Below are positions 10,582 to 64,000 of a stretch of DNA of 64,000 bases, one piece after another. Made by a program: the position numbers and the translations under genes. The notes below the pieces were generated by a model. The model saw only the letters and a program-made list of their open reading frames with translations, was not told the origin of the DNA and ran no database searches. How positions within the stretch are numbered: the first letter of the stretch is position 1; each line of letters begins with the position of its first letter. Source of the stretch: Streptomyces sp. NBC_01235 (GTDB taxonomy: Bacteria; Actinomycetota; Actinomycetes; Streptomycetales; Streptomycetaceae); the NCBI RefSeq assembly GCF_035989285.1, contig NZ_CP108513.1:4402001-4466000 (forward strand). Reading direction: 5' to 3'.

Positions 10582-11175
10582 ATGAGCAGCGCATGCGACG
10601 AACCCATCGGCGTCACCCCGGCCGGAGCCGCCTGGCTGGCCTCCGCCGGAACGTATCCGCGCAGCACGCTCACCCTCTGGGAGGAGCGGCCGCATGCACC
10701 GGTGGTCCTGCCCTGCGGCTCCGTGTTCGACATCGTCAGCGCGCCGGCGATGTTCGGGCGGCTGATGCTCGACCGGCTGTGGGGTGAGGGGCCGGGCTCC
10801 GGCCCGGTGGCCGCCTTCCGGGGGCGGACGCTGCTGTTCTCCGCGCCGGGCACCGCCCAGCGCCTGCCCTCGCTGCTGGAGTGGGAGGAGTGGAGCGCCG
10901 ACGGCCGCCGGGACGGCCGGGCCGGTACCGTGCCGCCGCTGCTGTGCCACGGCACCGGGGACGCGGTGACCGTGCCCGCGCTCGCCGCCCCGCCGTCACC
11001 GACACAGAACTCCACCCGCTGGATGGTGGCCCCGGACACGCGTCACCCGTGGCTTCCGGGGCCGGAGATCCTGCTGTGGGCGGCCGTCCGGGCGGCCCGC
11101 TCGGCCGTGCGGATATCGATTTCACCTCCCCAGGATCAGGATGCTAAGGTCTACGACGTCAGCAGGCGCCGCTAG
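10582..11175 (+). CDS. Streptomyces protein, possibly related to bifunctional primase/polymerase N-terminal domain
   Basis: A 197-aa protein with PAGAAWLASAGTYPRS near the start and a segment VLPCGSVFDIVSAPAMFGR that resembles the beginning of Prim-Pol (primase-polymerase) N-terminal domains in Streptomyces. The rest (GPVAAFRGRTLLFSAPG, then MVAPDTRHPWLPGP) is compatible, but catalytic acidic residues are not obvious, so it may be a non-catalytic relative. The ribosome-binding site is weak. The stop codon lies inside the 5' end of the downstream tRNA-Lys gene, overlapping it by 10 bases. Confidence 0.55.
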   Translation: MSSACDEPIGVTPAGAAWLASAGTYPRSTLTLWEERPHAPVVLPCGSVFDIVSAPAMFGRLMLDRLWGEGPGSGPVAAFRGRTLLFSAPGTAQRLPSLLEWEEWSADGRRDGRAGTVPPLLCHGTGDAVTVPALAAPPSPTQNSTRWMVAPDTRHPWLPGPEILLWAAVRAARSAVRISISPPQDQDAKVYDVSRRR

Positions 11176-11239
11176 CTCAGTTGGTTAGAGCAGCTGACTC
11201 TTAATCAGCGGGTCCGGGGTTCGAGTCCCTGGCGGCGCA
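11166..11239 (+). tRNA. tRNA-Lys (anticodon CTT), copy 1
   Basis: A 74-nt cloverleaf. The acceptor GCGCCGC pairs fully with GCGGCGC, the D-arm is TAGCTCAGTTGGTTAGA, the anticodon loop is ACTCTTAAT with anticodon CTT, and the T-arm contains GGGTTCGAGTCCC. CCA is not encoded. It is identical to the copies at 27220 and 33232. A strong hairpin follows at once. Confidence 0.97.
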
Positions 11240-11247
11240 CAGACGGC

Positions 11248-27219: not shown

Positions 27220-27293
27220 GCGCCGCTAGCTCAGTTGGTTAGAGCAGCTGACTCTTAATCAGCGGGTCCGGGGTTCGAGTCCCTGGCGGCGCA
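27220..27293 (+). tRNA. tRNA-Lys (anticodon CTT), copy 2
   Basis: Identical in all 74 bases to the copies at 11166 and 33232. A TAGTAT -10-like element lies at 27172-27177. The 3' end of the minus-strand ligase gene overlaps it in antisense. Confidence 0.97.
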
Positions 27294-28986
27294 CGGACGA
27301 AGGGCCTCTCGTGGACACGAGGGGCCCTTCGACATGCCCGGCTCGCGCCGCTTCCGCGGCCTCCTCCGCCGTCAGCCTCCGGTACGTCGCCTCCCCCGGC
27401 GGCCGCCACCACACCGGGTCGGCGCAGCGGACTCCCTCCCTGCGCAGCAGCGCCCGGTGGATCTTGTTCGTGGCGGTGACGGGCATCCGTTCCACCACCC
27501 GTACGAACCGGGGCGCCATCTTCGTGCCCAGGTCGGGCTGGGCGAGCAGGAACTCGGCGAAGGCGAGCGGGTCGAAGGTCCCGGCCAGCGTCGCCATCAC
27601 CTGGTCCCCGGTCACCGGGTCCGGGACGGCGTAGACGGCGACGGCGTCCGCCCCCTCGTACCGGGCGAGGATGTTCTCGATCATCGCGGCGGCCAGGTTC
27701 TCGCTGTCGACGCGGAGCCGGTCGTCGGTGCGGCCCGCGAAGTAGAGGAAGCCGTCGGAGTCGCCGTAGAAGAGGTCGCCGGTCCAGTACGCGCCGTCCT
27801 CCCGGCGCCGCTCCGCCTCCGCGGCCGGGTTGCGCCAGTAGCCCTCGAAGGGGTTCGGCCCCCGATTGACCAGCTCCCCTATCGCCGCGTCGCCGTTGAG
27901 CAGCCGTCCGGCCCCGTCGAACTCGGCCGGCGGACACTCCGCGCGCGTCTCCGGGTCGAGGACGACGAGCCCGGGCCCCGCCCGCCCGACCGCGCCCGCC
28001 GGAGTCCCCGGCGACCACTGCACCGCCGCCCCGCCCTCCGAGGAGCCGTACCCCTCCACCAGCCGCACCCCGAAGCGCCGCTCGAAGGCCGCCGCGTCCA
28101 CCGCTCCCGCCTCGGTGCCGAAGCCGAGCCGCAGGGCGTGGTCCCGGTCGTCGGGGCTCGGCTCGGTGGCCAGGACGTACTGGATCGCCCGGCCCACGTA
28201 GGTGAAGTACGTCGCCCGGTAGCGCCGTACGTCCGCCAGGAAGCCGGAGGCCGAGAACCGTCGCCGCAGCGCCACGCCCGCCCCGGCCGCCAGCGCGGGC
28301 GCCCAGTCGGCGATCACCGCGTTGCCGTGGAACATCGGCATGCAGACGTAGTGCACGTCGTCCGGGCGGACGGAGAACTGCCCGGCCAGCGAGCGCCCCG
28401 CGGCGGCCAGCCGACCCTGGGTGCAGAGGGCGGCCTTGGGGGCGCCGGTCGAGCCGGAGGTGAAGTAGAGCAGGAGCCGGTCGGCGGGAGTGGCGCGGGA
28501 GGCGTCGGGGCGGGCGTCCCGATACGGCGCGAGCAGGTCGTCGTACTCCGGAGTGCCGGTGATCAGCAGCCGCACTCCGCCCCGCTCGACCGCGCTCGCG
28601 CGGGAGGACCCCCATGGCAGGTCGAGGCCCCTGAGGAGGGGGAGGTGGGCGTGCTCGGTGATGAGGAGCCGGCACTCGGTGTGCAGGATGTCCCGGGTCA
28701 GTTCGGGGCCCCGCCGGGTGGGGTTGATCCCGGCCACGGCCGCACCGGCGAGGGCCGCGGCGGACAGCCAGAGCGGGAACTCCGGGGTGTTGTCCAGCAG
28801 CACCCCCAGGTGCGGCGGCCCGTCCGGCGGCAGCAGGTCGGCCAGCAGCGCCGCCCGGGCGGCGGCGCCGGCGGCGACCTCGTGGTGGGTGAGGACCGTG
28901 TCCTCGGGGCTCTCCGGATTCCCGCACCACAGCCCCGGACGGTGGTCACCCCACCGCGCTGCTACGAGTTCGGCGACGGACTCCAT
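27259..28986 (-). CDS. AMP-forming acyl-CoA synthetase-like ligase
   Basis: A 575-aa ANL-superfamily enzyme. The P-loop is LLYFTSGSTGAPKAA, A5 is EGYGSSEGGAA, A7 is YWTGDLFY, A8 is FAGRTDDRLRV, and the catalytic Lys is in PVTATNKIHRALL. It activates a carboxylic acid as acyl-AMP and probably transfers it to CoA; the substrate is not predictable. The last 25-30 codons run through the terminator and 35 bases into the antisense of the tRNA-Lys gene (tail QGLEPRTR). A dispersed palindrome (28582-28615) is translated near residue 130. It starts at MESVAELVAARW. Confidence 0.85.
   Translation of the reverse strand: MESVAELVAARWGDHRPGLWCGNPESPEDTVLTHHEVAAGAAARAALLADLLPPDGPPHLGVLLDNTPEFPLWLSAAALAGAAVAGINPTRRGPELTRDILHTECRLLITEHAHLPLLRGLDLPWGSSRASAVERGGVRLLITGTPEYDDLLAPYRDARPDASRATPADRLLLYFTSGSTGAPKAALCTQGRLAAAGRSLAGQFSVRPDDVHYVCMPMFHGNAVIADWAPALAAGAGVALRRRFSASGFLADVRRYRATYFTYVGRAIQYVLATEPSPDDRDHALRLGFGTEAGAVDAAAFERRFGVRLVEGYGSSEGGAAVQWSPGTPAGAVGRAGPGLVVLDPETRAECPPAEFDGAGRLLNGDAAIGELVNRGPNPFEGYWRNPAAEAERRREDGAYWTGDLFYGDSDGFLYFAGRTDDRLRVDSENLAAAMIENILARYEGADAVAVYAVPDPVTGDQVMATLAGTFDPLAFAEFLLAQPDLGTKMAPRFVRVVERMPVTATNKIHRALLRREGVRCADPVWWRPPGEATYRRLTAEEAAEAARAGHVEGPLVSTRGPSSVRRQGLEPRTR
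27300..27329. terminator. Terminator hairpin after tRNA-Lys copy 2
   Basis: AAGGGCCTCTCGTG pairs with CACGAGGGGCCCTT, with one wobble, around a short loop. It lies within the annotated 3' end of the ligase gene on the other strand. Confidence 0.75.
28582..28615. repeat. Partial dispersed palindromic repeat inside the ligase gene
   Basis: CGCTCGACCGCGCTCGCGCGG followed by GAGGACCCCCATGG, matching the 3' half of the element at 3029-3069. It is translated as PWGSSRASAVERG. Confidence 0.6.
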
Positions 28987-33231: not shown

Positions 33232-33305
33232 GCGCCGCTAGCTCAGTTGGTTAGAGCAGCTGACTCTTAATCAGCGGGTCCGGGGTTCGAGTCCCTGGCG
33301 GCGCA
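33232..33305 (+). tRNA. tRNA-Lys (anticodon CTT), copy 3
   Basis: Identical to copies 1 and 2, with the same CAGCAG 5' flank as copy 1. A TAGAGT -10-like element lies just upstream. Confidence 0.97.
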
Positions 33306-33312
33306 CAGACAC

Positions 33313-55160: not shown

Positions 55161-55269
55161 CGCCCCAGTCGACCGACGGGTCGGCCGGCGGGGAGGTGAT
55201 GGGGGCCTCTGACCACCCTGGCCTGCAGATACCTCTCTTTCGTCACCGGGCGGCGCTACGGTGTCCCCC

Positions 55270-56286
55270 ATGCGCCCCGACACGCCTGCCGAGAACGTCG
55301 ACCACCCCGCCGAAGCGGCACGCCTGGAGCGGACCGCCGGCCTGTATCCCGAGGACGCGGAAGCCCTGCTGTTGCAGGCCGCGGCCCACCTGGAACTGGC
55401 CGGCGACCGCCCCGCCGCGACGACCCTCTATGACCGCCTGCTGTCGGCCCCGGGCGGGCTGGACACCCCCTACCTGGTCCGCGCCCTGAAGGCCTCCAAC
55501 CTGTGGGAGTACGGCCACGAGGCCGAGGCCCGAGCGATCATCGACGGCATCCGCGCCGCGGCCCCCCGCGATCCCGCCCCCTGGGTGATCGTCGCGGAGT
55601 CCCTGGAATCCCACGACGAGCTGGAAGCGGCGCAGGAGACGTTCACCGAGGGCGTGACCCTGCTCCTGGCGGACGCCCAGGAACCCCCGCACTCCTCCCA
55701 CCCCCTCCTCTTCGGCCGCCACCGCGTACGCAGGATGCTGGGCGCGGCCCACGACGACTGGGACGTCCTCGCGGACACCCTCCACTCGTCGACCGTCTCC
55801 CTGGACGAACTCCACGACCCGAAACGGGTGTGGTCCCTGGGCTCGGACAACCCGGCGGAACTGGAGGCGGAGATCTCCCGCCTGCGCGCCGAGCTGGGCG
55901 CGTACCGGGAGGAGCTGTCCCGCCCGTTCCCGGTGGCGGTCCTGCACTGGCCGGCGGGCGAACTGGCGGAGCTGGTGGCCGCCTACCCGACGCTGGAGGC
56001 GGAGTACCCCTCCCACGAGACCCACCTCGCGACGATAGAGGCGTCACTGAGGGAGCTGTCGGCCTCGGGGACGGGCAACCTCGGCATCGTGACGGGCACG
56101 GTGCCTTCTTACGAGGCCTTCGCGGCCTCGGAGGCGGCATCACCGGGAGACGCGGACCTGCTGCCGCAGTACGCGACGACGCTGGCGGCGAGGGGCAAGG
56201 CTGTGGGGTGGCCTCCGGAGCGGGGGGCGACTTGTTGGTGTGGGTCGGGGGCGGCTTACAAGGGGTGCCACGGGGTGGGGGCGTAA
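55270..56286 (+). CDS. TPR-like protein with C-terminal SEC-C zinc motif
   Basis: A 338-aa protein. The N-terminal half shows TPR-like helices (YPEDAEALLLQAAAHLELAG, then ALKASNLWEYGHEAEARAI). The C-terminus is a SEC-C motif, CWCGSGAAYKGCH, which binds zinc and is usual on SecA and various nucleic-acid or protein-handling factors. The ATG at 55270 is used; a GTG nine bases upstream is equally possible. Function is unknown. Confidence 0.82.
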   Translation: MRPDTPAENVDHPAEAARLERTAGLYPEDAEALLLQAAAHLELAGDRPAATTLYDRLLSAPGGLDTPYLVRALKASNLWEYGHEAEARAIIDGIRAAAPRDPAPWVIVAESLESHDELEAAQETFTEGVTLLLADAQEPPHSSHPLLFGRHRVRRMLGAAHDDWDVLADTLHSSTVSLDELHDPKRVWSLGSDNPAELEAEISRLRAELGAYREELSRPFPVAVLHWPAGELAELVAAYPTLEAEYPSHETHLATIEASLRELSASGTGNLGIVTGTVPSYEAFAASEAASPGDADLLPQYATTLAARGKAVGWPPERGATCWCGSGAAYKGCHGVGA

Positions 56287-57219: not shown

Positions 57220-57702
57220 GTGTCCGGTGCTCTCCCATCCTCCCCATCCGTCTCCGCCCGCATGAGCCGCCAGGGCTCCCGCGATACAGCCCCGGAGGTC
57301 GCGGTTCGACGGCTGCTGCACGCCTCGGGGCTGCGGTACCGAGTCAACGTGCCGGTACCGGGGATGCCTCGCCGAACCATCGACATCGTCTTCGGCAAAG
57401 CCAAGATCGCCATCTTCCTGGACGGCTGCTTCTGGCACGGATGCCCCGAGCACGCCACGCATCCGAAGGCCAACGCGGAGTGGTGGCGGACAAAGCTCGA
57501 CAAGAACATAGCTCGTGATGTCGAGACGACCGAGCACCTCACCGCTGCCGGCTGGACAGTGCTGCGCTTCTGGGAACACGAGTCCGCCGCGGATGTGGCC
57601 CACCGCATTACCGCATCCCTGACATCCCAGAGACCGACCCCACCCGAGCACCCATCCAGTCCAAGCCTCACCGAGAGTGACGACGCCGACAACCAATCGT
57701 GA
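57220..57702 (+). CDS. vsr: Vsr-family very-short-patch-repair-type endonuclease
   Basis: About 160 aa with the Vsr fold: MSRQGSRDTAPEVAVRRLL, the metal-binding Asp in RRTIDIVF, and the zinc-site segment LDGCFWHGCPEH. Vsr nicks T:G mismatches made by cytosine methylation and accompanies DNA cytosine methyltransferases, or acts as a stand-alone nuclease in RM-like islands. The GTG at 57220 is a tentative start; the ATG at 57262 and GTG/ATG codons upstream are alternatives. No methyltransferase is visible inside the window; it may lie to the right. Confidence 0.82.
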   Translation: MSGALPSSPSVSARMSRQGSRDTAPEVAVRRLLHASGLRYRVNVPVPGMPRRTIDIVFGKAKIAIFLDGCFWHGCPEHATHPKANAEWWRTKLDKNIARDVETTEHLTAAGWTVLRFWEHESAADVAHRITASLTSQRPTPPEHPSSPSLTESDDADNQS

Positions 57703-57853
57703 CCCTGATTCACTTATCAACAACCACATCACCCAATAGTGTGTAGGGGTTGTGCAAGTGGGGCGCCGACCTGTACTTGAGAGCGGTCTGCCGCGACGGC
57801 ATCGCTCTACGGTCGGGGGGCGTGACGAGCGAGAGCGGGGGCGGTCGAGTCCT
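57703..57853. other. Space between vsr and the Z1 operon
   Basis: 151 bases, more AT-rich than the surroundings, with CACCCAATAGTGTG about 120 bases before the Z1 start as a weak -10-like region. It probably contains the promoter of the Z1 operon. Confidence 0.4.
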
Positions 57854-60406
57854 GTGACCGACGAATTCGATGACATGTATGAGACGTTCAAGGCGATCTT
57901 GGACGCCTTTCCCCCGTCAGAGGCCGTGAAGCGGCTGGAGTTGATGGGTGTCTCCTCGGCCGTCATCCAGAAGATCCGCGATCGTCACGAGCAGCAGACG
58001 ATACGCATCAAGGAGCTCGAAGAACCCCACGCCGTCGTCCTGGGCAACCGCGACACCTGGTACACGGGGCCACAGCCCAGGGACAAGTGCTGGCCCGCGA
58101 TCGAGGACCTGCTGCTTCGGGACGGCTGGTCCAAGGGCACCGCCATCCGAAACCTCGATGATTCCTCCACTCGGGTCGTCTCGCTGCTGAACCACCCGAA
58201 GGAAAAGGCGTTCTCCACGCGGGGCCTCGTGGTTGGCTATGTCCAGTCCGGCAAGACGACGAACTTCACGTCGGTCATGGCCAAGGCCGCCGACCGGGGC
58301 TACAAGCTGTTCATTGTTCTTGCGGGCATTCACAACGGCCTTCGCCGTCAGACACAGGCCCGTCTGGTTGAGCAGCTCGTGGAGCCCAACCCCTCGCTGT
58401 GGTCCCAACTGACCGATCTCGACAAGGACTTCACCCCTACGGCGAATCCAGCCTCGTACTTCGGGAAGAGCAACAAGACGCATGTGCTGTGCGTCGTGAA
58501 GAAGAACGCGACCGTACTGCGCAAGCTTGCCGTGTGGCTGGACAAAGCGGCGGACTACTTGAAGGACTGTCCGGCTCTGATCATCGACGACGAGGCGGAC
58601 CAGGCGACTGTTGCGACGAAGTCCATCAATCCGCTGATCCTCAGCATGATGAAGAGCCTGCCGCGTTCCGCGTACGTGGGATACACGGCGTCGCCGTTCG
58701 CCAACCTGCTGATCGATCCCAGCGCCGAGGACCTCTATCCGCGGGACTTCGTCGTCAACCTTCCCAAGCCGGAAGGACACTTCGGTACCGAGGTGTTGTT
58801 CGGGCGCTATGCGCTCGACGGTGAGGACCCCGACCAGGTCGACGACGGCCACGACATGATCCGGTCCGTGCCGGAGGACGACGTACCGTGCGTGCGCCCC
58901 GAGACAAAGGCCGATGTCGAGGGCTTCGAGCCCGTCATCACCGACACACTCCGCAGAGCTGTCGAGTACTTCTGGCTCGTGACAGCCGCTCGCCGTGTTC
59001 GCCGTACCGGCAATCCGCACAGCACGATGCTGATCCACACAAGCGTCAACACGTCCGTGCACAACAGCTTCGAGCGACCGTTGCAGCACCTGCTGAACCG
59101 GGCCGCGCAGACCATGACCGACGCCGTCTTCCTCTCCCGATTGCGTGATCTCTGGGATCAGGAGACGGCACGCGTCCCCGCCGACGACTTCGGCGAGACA
59201 AAGGTGCCGTTCGACGACCTGGTGCCCGAACTGCCGGGAGTTCTGCGCAGTTGCCGCATCGTCATGGACAACTCCAGTAGCGAGGCTCGTCTCGACTACG
59301 AGAACGGTCCGGTCGTGGCGATAGCCGTGGGAGGCAACACCCTCTCCCGCGGGCTCACCCTCGAAGGCCTGTCGGTCAGCTATTTCGTGCGCGCCGTCTC
59401 GGCATACGACACTCTGCTGCAGATGGGTCGTTGGTTCGGCTTCCGGAACGGCTACGCCGACCTGCCCCGCATCTGGATGACCGACGAACTGGCCGAGTGG
59501 TTCCGGCACCTGGCCACGGTCGAGACCGAGATGCGCCGCGACATTGACATCTACATGACCGAGTCCGAAACACCACGCACCTTCGCCGTCCGGCTGCGCA
59601 CTCACCCTGCACTACGAGTGACCGCAGCCGCCAAGATGCGCGATGCAGTCACAGCTGCCTCCTCATACGGAGGCAAACGGGTTCAAACCCACTACTTCCA
59701 CACCAACGCCGACTGGCTGCGTGGAAACATCACGGCTGCACGTGAACTGGTCTCTGCGTCGACTTCCAACGCCGTGAGAGTGGAGGATCGCTCCGCAGAG
59801 GGACGCTACATCTTCCGTGACGTGCCATACGACATGGTGATCGACTTCCTAAATTCCTACAGTTTCCATGAGCGGTCGCCCGAGAACGACGCGGACCTGA
59901 TCAGCGGCTACATCCTGAAGCGTGTCACGACGGCAGGCTCACTGCGCCGATGGAATATTGCGATCGTCGGCAACCCCGACGGAGAACACTTCACCTTCGC
60001 GCCAGGAATATCTGTCGGGCGCAACATTCGTACCCGGCTCGCCGTGACCAACCCCGCTCCGGACTTCGCCGACATCAAGACGCTGATGAGCCCTCGCGAT
60101 GCCGCCGTGGACTTGGACAGAGACACAGCAAAGCTCACCGAGAAGGGCATCAGAGACTCGCGTCGCCTCCATCTGCCGGACACAGGGCTGTTGGTTCTGT
60201 ACCCAATTGACAAGACGTCCGAGCCAAGTCCCGGCAAGAAGCTGCGTGCCCCTTTGAACGCGGAAGAACACGTGATCGGCGTCGGCCTCGTCTTTCCGGA
60301 ACCGCAGCACGGGGACAGCACCGTGGAAAAGTACATCTCCGCGGACCTGTCGGGTGTGCGATTGGAGGACGAGGACCTCAGCCTCCTCGAAGGTGAAGAC
60401 GCATGA
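57854..60406 (+). CDS. Z1-domain SF2 helicase-like protein
   Basis: An 850-aa protein. The ATP site GYVQSGKTTNF lies near residue 128, the Walker B DDEAD in LIIDDEADQAT near 243, and motifs V/VI in GGNTLSRGLTLEGL and LQMGRWFGFR near 520. The arrangement is that of Z1-domain proteins, SF2-type ATPases found with restriction-modification islands. The last third is unassigned. The GTG at 57854 is used; several in-frame starts exist nearby. ATGA overlap joins it to the DUF4420 gene. Confidence 0.85.
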   Translation: MTDEFDDMYETFKAILDAFPPSEAVKRLELMGVSSAVIQKIRDRHEQQTIRIKELEEPHAVVLGNRDTWYTGPQPRDKCWPAIEDLLLRDGWSKGTAIRNLDDSSTRVVSLLNHPKEKAFSTRGLVVGYVQSGKTTNFTSVMAKAADRGYKLFIVLAGIHNGLRRQTQARLVEQLVEPNPSLWSQLTDLDKDFTPTANPASYFGKSNKTHVLCVVKKNATVLRKLAVWLDKAADYLKDCPALIIDDEADQATVATKSINPLILSMMKSLPRSAYVGYTASPFANLLIDPSAEDLYPRDFVVNLPKPEGHFGTEVLFGRYALDGEDPDQVDDGHDMIRSVPEDDVPCVRPETKADVEGFEPVITDTLRRAVEYFWLVTAARRVRRTGNPHSTMLIHTSVNTSVHNSFERPLQHLLNRAAQTMTDAVFLSRLRDLWDQETARVPADDFGETKVPFDDLVPELPGVLRSCRIVMDNSSSEARLDYENGPVVAIAVGGNTLSRGLTLEGLSVSYFVRAVSAYDTLLQMGRWFGFRNGYADLPRIWMTDELAEWFRHLATVETEMRRDIDIYMTESETPRTFAVRLRTHPALRVTAAAKMRDAVTAASSYGGKRVQTHYFHTNADWLRGNITAARELVSASTSNAVRVEDRSAEGRYIFRDVPYDMVIDFLNSYSFHERSPENDADLISGYILKRVTTAGSLRRWNIAIVGNPDGEHFTFAPGISVGRNIRTRLAVTNPAPDFADIKTLMSPRDAAVDLDRDTAKLTEKGIRDSRRLHLPDTGLLVLYPIDKTSEPSPGKKLRAPLNAEEHVIGVGLVFPEPQHGDSTVEKYISADLSGVRLEDEDLSLLEGEDA

Positions 60407-61428
60407 GCGACAACGACTTCCGTGACATTGTCGAGGAACACTGGGTCGCGCTCGAAGCCGCGCCGACCAGTGGCGAGCGTCGCCTCCGCGTTTCACAGCT
60501 TCCGGTGGTGACCGAACAAGGTGCCTTGGTGGCAGCGGTCGATCACGACGGGTTCCGCCACGTGCTCGTGCCTGTGCACTCGCATTTGAAAATTCGTTCC
60601 GGCCTCGACGGCCCCGTCCTCCACTTGCGTAAACGCCCCTTGGAGGATGAGGAAACGTATCAGACGTACGCCGATCTCGCCTGCTTGCGCTCGGACCTGA
60701 ACGACCTGTTCACAGAGCTTTGCGCGGACATACTGTCTGCGACAGAAGAACTGCCGAACAACCCTGCCAAGGCGCTCTATCGGGTCCTCGACCGCTGGAA
60801 GGCTCTGTTCCAACCACAGGGAGCTGTGCTCGGTCCCGAACAGCTCGCGGGCCTTTTCGGGGAACTTCTGGTACTCGACCGATTCCTGCAGTTGGACTCC
60901 AGCGCGCATCGCCTCTGGCACGGACCAGAAGGTCACCACCACGACTTCACCACCGGAAAGCTCGCTGTCGAGGTGAAGGCGAGCTCCAAAGGAAAAGGCC
61001 GAAGGCCGCGCGTTCATGGGCTCGACCAACTCGACGCCCCGGAGGGTGGAACCCTCTGGCTGGCCTGGTTCCGCCTGCACCGCACCATCGGCGGCAGTTC
61101 AGGTGTCGGCTTCTTGGAAATGCTCGAGAAGACGCTTCGATCCTGTGATGACGAAAGCACCCTCCTCGAACTTCTCGCCCAGGCCGGTTACCGGTCCGTC
61201 GATGCCAAGTGGTACCGCGATGTGCGCTTCGTCGTCGATGAGGAGCGATGGTACGAGGTGACCGCGGGCTTCCCCTCGTTGACCAGCCGGGCGCTCTTAG
61301 CGGCAGGCGTGCCGATTTCCGCTCTCGACGTCGAGTACACCATCGACCTGTCCGGTCAGACTCCGGTCCCCTTGGCGCCCGACGCGGTGTCCCGGACGAT
61401 CGACCGCATGATCCAGGAGTCCGCGTGA
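60403..61428 (+). CDS. PD-(D/E)XK-type protein (DUF4420)
   Basis: A 341-aa protein. A nuclease-like core is visible: Glu154 in GLFGELLVLDRF, Asp181 in HHHDFTTGK, and Glu190-x-Lys192 in LAVEVKAS. This is the pattern of the DUF4420 family, known as a companion of Z1 and GHKL proteins. It may cleave DNA under the control of the ATPases. It overlaps both neighbours (ATGA before, GTGA after), so stoichiometric production in one complex is likely. Confidence 0.85.
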   Translation: MSDNDFRDIVEEHWVALEAAPTSGERRLRVSQLPVVTEQGALVAAVDHDGFRHVLVPVHSHLKIRSGLDGPVLHLRKRPLEDEETYQTYADLACLRSDLNDLFTELCADILSATEELPNNPAKALYRVLDRWKALFQPQGAVLGPEQLAGLFGELLVLDRFLQLDSSAHRLWHGPEGHHHDFTTGKLAVEVKASSKGKGRRPRVHGLDQLDAPEGGTLWLAWFRLHRTIGGSSGVGFLEMLEKTLRSCDDESTLLELLAQAGYRSVDAKWYRDVRFVVDEERWYEVTAGFPSLTSRALLAAGVPISALDVEYTIDLSGQTPVPLAPDAVSRTIDRMIQESA

Positions 61429-63416
61429 CGGAACCCCGCTGGTTCTCCCAGCCCTACCCTCCGGAAGGTGCGAGCGCCGCCGAGGGCATCCGCAATCAGC
61501 TCGGCCGGCCCGAGCTCGATCTGCTCACCATCCTGGTGCGGGAGTCGGCCCAGAACAGTTGGGATGCCCGGCTCGAGCGGTCCTCGACGCCCGTGGACTA
61601 TCGCATCGACATGTGGACCGTCGGACCGGCCCACGCCGGTGCATGGCGGGAGCTCCTGCTGTCAGGGGCTCCGAACAGCACCGAGCACTTTCCGCTTCGC
61701 GACACACTCAAGCGGGGCCCGGTCCGAGTTCTGTCCGTGTCCGATCGTGGCACCCGCGGGTTGGGCGGCCCGACGCGAGCGGACAATGCCGTGGGTCCCG
61801 ACCGTGACTTCGTCTCCTTCATCCGCAACATCGGCGAACCACGCGACACGGCGCTCGGCGGCGGCACCTACGGCTTCGGCAAAGGCATTTTCTACCTGCT
61901 GTCCAAGCCCGGGACCGTCATCGTCCATTCCCGCTGCCGAACCGCTGCGGGCGGACACGAAACACGTCTCATCGGCTGCTCCCTCTGGAAGAGCTACGTT
62001 GCGGCGGAACCCGACGGCGGTCGACGCTATACCGGTAGACACTGGTGGGGCGACATGTCGGGCGAGGTGGTCGAGCCGCTGGTGGGCGCGGAGGCGGAAG
62101 CCGTGGCGCAACGCCTCGGACTCAAAGCGTTCGGGCCGGAGGAGACCGGAACGGCGGTCGTCGTCGTGGATCCGAATCTGGACGATCTCGAGCCTGCGGA
62201 GGCGGCCGACTATCTGGGCGACACCATCGTCTGGCACCTGTGGCCCAAAATGATCTCCACTGCGGGCAACCCACCTGCCATGCGATTCTCCGTGGCCTAC
62301 GACGGACTTCAGCACCCGGTACCCGATCCGCGCACCATGCGTCCTCTCAACTTGTTCGTCGCGGCATACGAGGCGATGGTCGGCCCGGCCGGCAGCGACC
62401 TGGAATGTCATAAGCCCAAGAAACACCTCGGACGCCTCGGCCTGGTGAAGCGCATCATGCCCTCGCTGGAGCCCACACGGGCCTCCCGCATGCTGGACAT
62501 CGAGGACCTGATCCATCACGTCTGCCTGATGCGCCCTGCGGAGCTGGTCGTCACGTATCACGCCGGCCCCAAGCCGCCGAGCGCAAATCAAGGTTATGCC
62601 GGGGTGTTCAGGGCCGACGAAGCCATGGACGAGGTGTATGCCAAGGCCGAGCCACCGACTCACGACGCCTGGAACCGGCATTCCCTCGACAGGCCCGAGA
62701 GCACCTACGTACAGACGACGTTCCGGCGCATCAGCGAAAGCCTGGAGCAGTTGCTCTCCCTGAGCGGCACCGCACGCCCCGGCGCCAGCAATGTCGCGCT
62801 GGGAGCGGCCAGTTCGCTCTTTTCGGGATTGGTCGGGGGAGCCTGGGGCATCGGTGGAGCCACCGCCTATTCCAAACCGGGCAGCACCATCACGAGTGCG
62901 TCCAGGTCGTCCGATGTCGAGGACACCGCAACGCACGAGGCCGCAGGCGGTCGACGTCCCCCGACAGGCCTCGCGGACCGGACCGACCTCGGCGGCACAC
63001 ACCCCACCGAGAGCTTCGGTCATGACAGCCGGCCGACCGCAGAAATATCGGACGGTGGCGCCCCTGACGCTCCACGTCGTCGTCCCCGAGTGCAGTACGT
63101 CGGCGACCCCTACTACGACGACCGCGGAGACACCTCCGTGCTGGTTCAGGAGTTCCGACTGCCCGTACCCGGGCCTCAGCGCGTACGCATCGACCTCGCG
63201 GTCACGCTGCCCGGCAGCGGCGGGCGCGAGACCGATCCCCCGATCGGGGCGAGCATGCCCGTACTGATCGGTTGGGAGGACACCACCGGACGGCTTCACA
63301 CCTCCGATCCACAAGTGGTCGAAGGCGGCGAGTCCGTCTGGCGTGCCGTAGTACGACCTGCTCCGGACACCATGACCGAGATCGGCATCAAGGTCGAGGC
63401 GGTGAGGGCTTCGTGA
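61425..63416 (+). CDS. GHKL-type ATPase (MORC/MutL-like)
   Basis: A 663-aa protein. The N-terminal ATP-binding fold has the N box LVRESAQNSWDA (E40, N44), G1 SVSDRGTRGLGG (D107) and G2 GGGTYGFGKGIF near residues 145-155. A middle region (WHLWPKMI) may be the S5-like transducer, and a charged, flexible segment leads to a C-terminal beta-rich domain. GHKL ATPases of this type act as ATP-gated DNA clamps; MORC is the eukaryotic relative. The GTG overlaps the DUF4420 stop. The role in defence or repair is inference from the neighbourhood. Confidence 0.83.
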   Translation: MTEPRWFSQPYPPEGASAAEGIRNQLGRPELDLLTILVRESAQNSWDARLERSSTPVDYRIDMWTVGPAHAGAWRELLLSGAPNSTEHFPLRDTLKRGPVRVLSVSDRGTRGLGGPTRADNAVGPDRDFVSFIRNIGEPRDTALGGGTYGFGKGIFYLLSKPGTVIVHSRCRTAAGGHETRLIGCSLWKSYVAAEPDGGRRYTGRHWWGDMSGEVVEPLVGAEAEAVAQRLGLKAFGPEETGTAVVVVDPNLDDLEPAEAADYLGDTIVWHLWPKMISTAGNPPAMRFSVAYDGLQHPVPDPRTMRPLNLFVAAYEAMVGPAGSDLECHKPKKHLGRLGLVKRIMPSLEPTRASRMLDIEDLIHHVCLMRPAELVVTYHAGPKPPSANQGYAGVFRADEAMDEVYAKAEPPTHDAWNRHSLDRPESTYVQTTFRRISESLEQLLSLSGTARPGASNVALGAASSLFSGLVGGAWGIGGATAYSKPGSTITSASRSSDVEDTATHEAAGGRRPPTGLADRTDLGGTHPTESFGHDSRPTAEISDGGAPDAPRRRPRVQYVGDPYYDDRGDTSVLVQEFRLPVPGPQRVRIDLAVTLPGSGGRETDPPIGASMPVLIGWEDTTGRLHTSDPQVVEGGESVWRAVVRPAPDTMTEIGIKVEAVRAS

Positions 63417-64000
63417 CGCGACGCGTTCTTCCCTACCGCGCCCCGACCGAGGACGTCGTGGCACCGGGCCCTTGGCGCCTAGTGATCGAGGACGGCGAGG
63501 TGGCCCTGCCCGAGGCCTTGCCCGACTGGGACTACCAAATGGACGTGCACGTACGTAGATCCCTTCATGTCGACCTGGACCGGGTCCGGCAGCAAACGGG
63601 GCTGTCGGCGCACGCCGCACTCATGCTCTCGGTGGTCTGGACTGCCACAGGTTCCAACCTCAGCGGCCCTGCCAAGCATGTGCGCCTGTCCGAGGCCGGT
63701 ACGAGGGCCGTCGAAGTCGATGTCCTGTTGCGTGGTGCCGATCTCGGCGGCCTGTTGCTCCTGGACACCTCACTCGTGCTCGCCGAGCGCATCAACGACG
63801 CACGGCCTTCCTCGCCAAGGCGAGCGGGATCCGTGCTGTGGAGCGATCGCGAGGCCCTTCGTCTGCAGGGCGACGCCCCACAGTTCCCCATGGCCGTGAT
63901 CGACTTCGCCCGAACGTCATTCCCGGCGGACGCCGCCTGGCACCTGCAAATCAGTGGGGGCCTTGAGAGCGCCACCATGGGTGCCCTCCTGCTCCTCGTC
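63413..64000 (+). CDS. Unknown protein of the Z1/GHKL operon (cut by right edge)
   Basis: The first 196 residues of a protein starting at a GTG (63413) overlapping the GHKL stop (GTGA). Acidic, with beta-rich pattern (GPWRLVIEDGEVALP, then VHVRRSLHVDLDRVRQQTG). No domain is recognised. Its coupled position says it belongs to the same system; its full length and any companion methylase or AIPR-type gene are beyond the window. Confidence 0.7.
   Translation, partial: MTRRVLPYRAPTEDVVAPGPWRLVIEDGEVALPEALPDWDYQMDVHVRRSLHVDLDRVRQQTGLSAHAALMLSVVWTATGSNLSGPAKHVRLSEAGTRAVEVDVLLRGADLGGLLLLDTSLVLAERINDARPSSPRRAGSVLWSDREALRLQGDAPQFPMAVIDFARTSFPADAAWHLQISGGLESATMGALLLLV

Follow-up and report, generated by a model that had tools for sequence, protein, structure and literature searches.

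A cysteine-less C5 methyltransferase domain fused to DUF6339 in a Streptomyces operon: a possible reader of target DNA

We analyzed a 64,000-nucleotide stretch of the Streptomyces sp. NBC_01235 chromosome (contig NZ_CP108513.1, positions 4,402,001 to 4,466,000; hereafter the window), whose right end carries an operon with a DUF6339 protein fused to a catalytically dead C5 methyltransferase domain. All genes of the cassette lie on the + strand. The first encodes a Vsr-family endonuclease of 146 aa (57262..57702, from ATG 57262 with GTG 57220 as an alternative start; TIGR00632 111.5 bits for a cut-off of 97.85, PF03852 5.6e-18). It is followed by a PF10593 protein, called a Z1 helicase in the initial annotation (57854..60406; 1.5e-66), a MzaD-like DUF4420 PD-(D/E)XK nuclease of 341 aa (60403..61428; PF14390 2.1e-51), a paraMORC2-like GHKL ATPase of 663 aa (61425..63416; PADLOC search, alignment and motif patterns) and a 298-aa protein of unknown family (63413..64000, continuing outside the window to 64309). 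Further genes were located by Pfam scan outside the window, in the same numbering: the 613-aa fusion of DUF6339 to a cysteine-less C5 domain (64306-66147) and a live C5 methyltransferase of 448 aa (66157-67503). Rightward extension for a cytosine methyltransferase, which the initial annotation had suggested, thus yielded both a working and a dead copy.

The gene array observed from the sequence alone was confirmed, including the Vsr gene and the intact nuclease: E154, D181 and E190-V-K192 are invariant among eight aligned DUF4420 proteins. The initial annotation had likened the whole to restriction-modification-linked MORC/MutL-like neighbourhoods with a probable anti-phage role, an interpretation that is partly supported. 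The cassette indeed combines a superfamily 2 (SF2) helicase with a DThhQXuRhFG motif, an adjoining restriction endonuclease-fold protein with E-D-ExK, a GHKL ATPase, a C5 methyltransferase and Vsr. DUF6339, the 298-aa protein and a C5 enzyme lacking the catalytic cysteine do not figure in the consulted description of such neighbourhoods. The MORC-like character of the ATPase holds for the paraMORC2 ExxxH motif (E409xxxH413), of which E409 and H413 are invariant in ten aligned GHKL proteins and which lies in a presumed S5 domain stretch; it does not extend to the S5 domain motif GhXhhpXXRhl, for which a strict regular expression found no match in this protein. The 298-aa protein matched nothing in Pfam, NCBIfam or PADLOC and runs past the edge, as described; its fold, not recognized previously, is now predicted as an Ig-like sandwich with C-terminal helices (AlphaFold2, pLDDT 84.5). 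Comparison of gene content between strains, proposed at the same time, revealed that the 298-aa gene is kept in 62/62 core loci.

The C-terminal half of the DUF6339 fusion matches PF00145 (E 1.3e-37), with motif IV reading GGLPRVRS where live enzymes carry PCQ; R374 replaces the catalytic cysteine. Motif I, ENV, the QxR region and motif X are retained, as is the DNA-binding fold. We examined 67 loci with a strong match, namely the window's and 66 of 70 fetched by similarity to its protein (L055-L058 carry no such copy), and motif IV lacked the cysteine in all of them. The same was true of 62/62 fused copies, each with an unbroken reading frame (domain frames below 230 aa excluded; named and unnamed sets share species). 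Among the best 120 of 976 relatives plus the query, the regular expression GGLPR[V][KR]S caught 115 of 121 sequences; examples of the six other rows read AGLPRVKS. Nei-Gojobori estimates of the ratio of nonsynonymous to synonymous substitution rates (dN/dS) were 0.096-0.119 for the dead domain in four comparisons, 0.034-0.155 for its target recognition domain and 0.055-0.112 for DUF6339, with 0.101 for the live enzyme in a single comparison. The linker gave 0.57-0.80 in three comparisons and was saturated in the fourth. A relic would not show the low values of the dead domain. The other genes do fit an already described gene set, and 21/62 cores lack a fused dead domain, but the uniform cysteine loss, dN/dS near 0.1 and intact frames make a relic very unlikely.

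The gene after the fusion keeps its catalytic cysteine (motif IV GGPPCQGFS) and all other motifs. Such a live C5 gene lies immediately downstream in 56 of the 67 loci, a count that L088 and L096 entered by separate inspection, the regular expression having caught another string. Among the 11 remaining loci, a PPCQ gene was seen in seven (L038, L053, L073, L091, L094, L100 and L101), L043 stops at a contig edge, L087 is ambiguous, and no live C5 gene was found near L061 and L090.

In a quick-search tree of 97 rows, after removal of near-copies and with motif IV columns omitted, the 76 dead rows formed a single clade (SH-like approximate likelihood ratio test, SH-aLRT, 87; 99 without three PRSP rows). 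A second cysteine-less motif IV, CGLPRSPY, occurs in L145, L146 and L211, which form a long basal branch of the dead clade, one copy being DUF6339-fused. The closest live relatives of the clade are C5 methyltransferases with motif IV VPC[PT]P, many of them adjoining Vsr; we observed such enzymes at L132-L135, L139-L143 and L147-L151. At least three switches between fused and unfused states are needed inside the dead clade, with the fusion either gained or lost, and a single fused clade is rejected (approximately unbiased test, p-AU 7.6e-6). The full-length fusion is patchy, present in about 21 of 392 Streptomyces genomes and, in a phylum-wide sample of 396 genomes, in two, both Streptomyces; one dead copy was seen outside Streptomycetaceae, in Nocardia kruczakiae (L195).

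What occupies the C-terminus of DUF6339 varies. In 62 named core loci we found the dead C5 domain in 41 (39 by script, L170 and L211 on inspection), a DUF3320-like region in seven, HTH_3 (helix-turn-helix) in one, the relative in L195, and nothing in 13. The DUF3320-like assignments comprise L191 above the Pfam cut-off, L174, L181 and L196 below it, L186 with no match, and L176 and L184 by eye. We read the dead enzyme as a module for DNA recognition chiefly because a classical DNA-binding domain, HTH_3, is among the occupants and because these replace one another. Loss of the catalytic residue despite strong conservation, next to a working copy, suggests that the dead copy now recognizes target DNA rather than modifying it. 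We tentatively propose, with a probability of about 0.4, a widespread class of restriction-type systems in Streptomyces. Its dead C5 methyltransferase would still read the target sequence as a self/non-self sensor, this reading would be blocked by the mark of the live neighbour, and the DUF6339 fusion, with its three or more changes of state, would couple it to the GHKL ATPase complex. Two points weigh against this proposal or lend it little: the fused domain is absent from 21/62 cores, which speaks against its being necessary, and DUF3320 has no function in Pfam.

DNMT3L and two-subunit bacterial C5 enzymes offer models for another role, in which the dead copy would be a partner that guides or stimulates the live methyltransferase instead of triggering restriction. 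The frequent downstream live gene fits this, as do L174 and L176, where the core lies beside two cysteine-keeping C5 genes, one of the kind nearest the dead clade. However, the window's live enzyme itself keeps all motifs, fusion in 41/62 cores physically ties the dead copy to the GHKL/DUF6339 side, and L061 and L090 show no live gene nearby, so we hold a partner role to be unlikely. Vsr, the most constant neighbour of stand-alone dead copies (43/46), could instead be the central enzyme of a repair or chromosome maintenance cassette acting around 5-methylcytosine and not against viruses. The patchy spread of the fusion, and the fact that other strains fill the same chromosomal slot with an MrcB_N or a ResIII-DUF3427-PLD gene, make this quite improbable. 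Finally, some methyltransferases of restriction systems repress their own operon, and a dead copy that keeps its DNA-binding fold, with HTH_3 in the same place in L195, might do so with no part in target recognition. Fusion to DUF6339 inside an operon of effector-like proteins and the strong constraint on the whole domain speak against a regulator, which has only a slight chance of being correct.

Comparison with described systems placed the cassette among relatives rather than members of the Mza anti-phage system: the PF10593 protein reached 397.7 bits with MzaC (NF041933, cut-off 1500) and the nuclease 87.3 bits with MzaD (NF041934, cut-off 420). No NCBIfam model of other Mza proteins (MzaB etc.) matched the GHKL, 298-aa or DUF6339 proteins at E 10, nor did PADLOC Mza models match the first two. 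Of the computed PADLOC candidate PDC-M33, PDC-M33A matches the GHKL protein (1.5e-8 here, 1.4e-22 in L099) and PDC-M33C the DUF6339 relative in L099 (3.1e-11; for the fusion protein, the best 25 of 53 model matches were compared); the 298-aa protein has no PDC-M33B match, and the candidate carries no statement on a dead methyltransferase. In L099 a large sacsin-like ATPase gene (1-2508; PADLOC TmtA models, E 1.2e-40) adjoins the GHKL/DUF6339 cluster, and similar genes lie by other stand-alone layouts. A literature search, with most subscription journals outside it, found no paper on DUF6339 or PDC-M33 and, among the matches listed, no title or abstract opening on a dead C5 methyltransferase within a restriction system. 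According to the accessible parts of the respective reports, the R-protein of CglI/NgoAVII has PLD and B3 domains (PMC4267653), while the nuclease here is PD-(D/E)XK and Pfam found no B3 or PLD domain in ten proteins scanned. From the same kind of excerpt, BrxX of BREX is a methyltransferase-fold protein that senses unmarked DNA as the first defence step and is also the system's own methylating enzyme (PMC11842806); the proposed sensor here shares the fold but would be a separate, cysteine-less C5 copy. The Corynebacterium diphtheriae BH8 island, as far as that source was available, has an EcoRII-like endonuclease and an Xre-fused methylase (PMC5379612), features that set it apart by description, not by sequence.

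The cassette is flanked by another 341-aa gene (window 55261-56286) and, on the other side, by a pair of ATPase-like and HTH/DUF5753 genes. A slot scan, with G016 left out, found at this position the window's layout (G068, G172, G208), a stand-alone dead-copy layout (G007, G019), an MrcB_N gene (G030) or a ResIII-DUF3427-PLD gene (G013, G024, G028). At this site, one set of restriction-like genes can take the place of another. The flanking 341-aa gene was within the fetched stretch in 16/21 window-layout loci (window included), 32/46 stand-alone and 27/62 named loci. The slot, from window 55261-56286 to L002 14745, is a promising place for finding further systems. Outside the window we noted a convergent GHKL/HSDR_N gene of the BbrUII/HgiDII restriction family (L002 10608-12506, or 67608-69506 in window numbering), with a third-position GC content (GC3) of 0.63 against 0.75-0.79 in operon genes. 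None of 30 other loci carrying the system has this gene, and its protein had three long matches only, at 27-34% identity, in 199 Streptomyces genomes including its own. Elsewhere in the window, three identical same-strand tRNA-Lys (CTT) genes (11166-11240, 27220-27294 and 33232-33306) are spaced by 16 kb and 6 kb, with lower-GC stretches between or beside them; the tRNA genes may mark attachment sites of integrated elements.

If the proposed sensor role is correct, the dead copy would serve target recognition and the live one host protection, two tasks that many restriction systems assign to one methyltransferase. Testable roles would follow for DUF6339 and the unannotated 298-aa family. Annotation and Streptomyces genetics are concerned as well, many cysteine-less proteins carrying the source name DNA cytosine methyltransferase. 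The system would then provide a clear bacterial example of a methyltransferase pseudoenzyme retained as a DNA reader.
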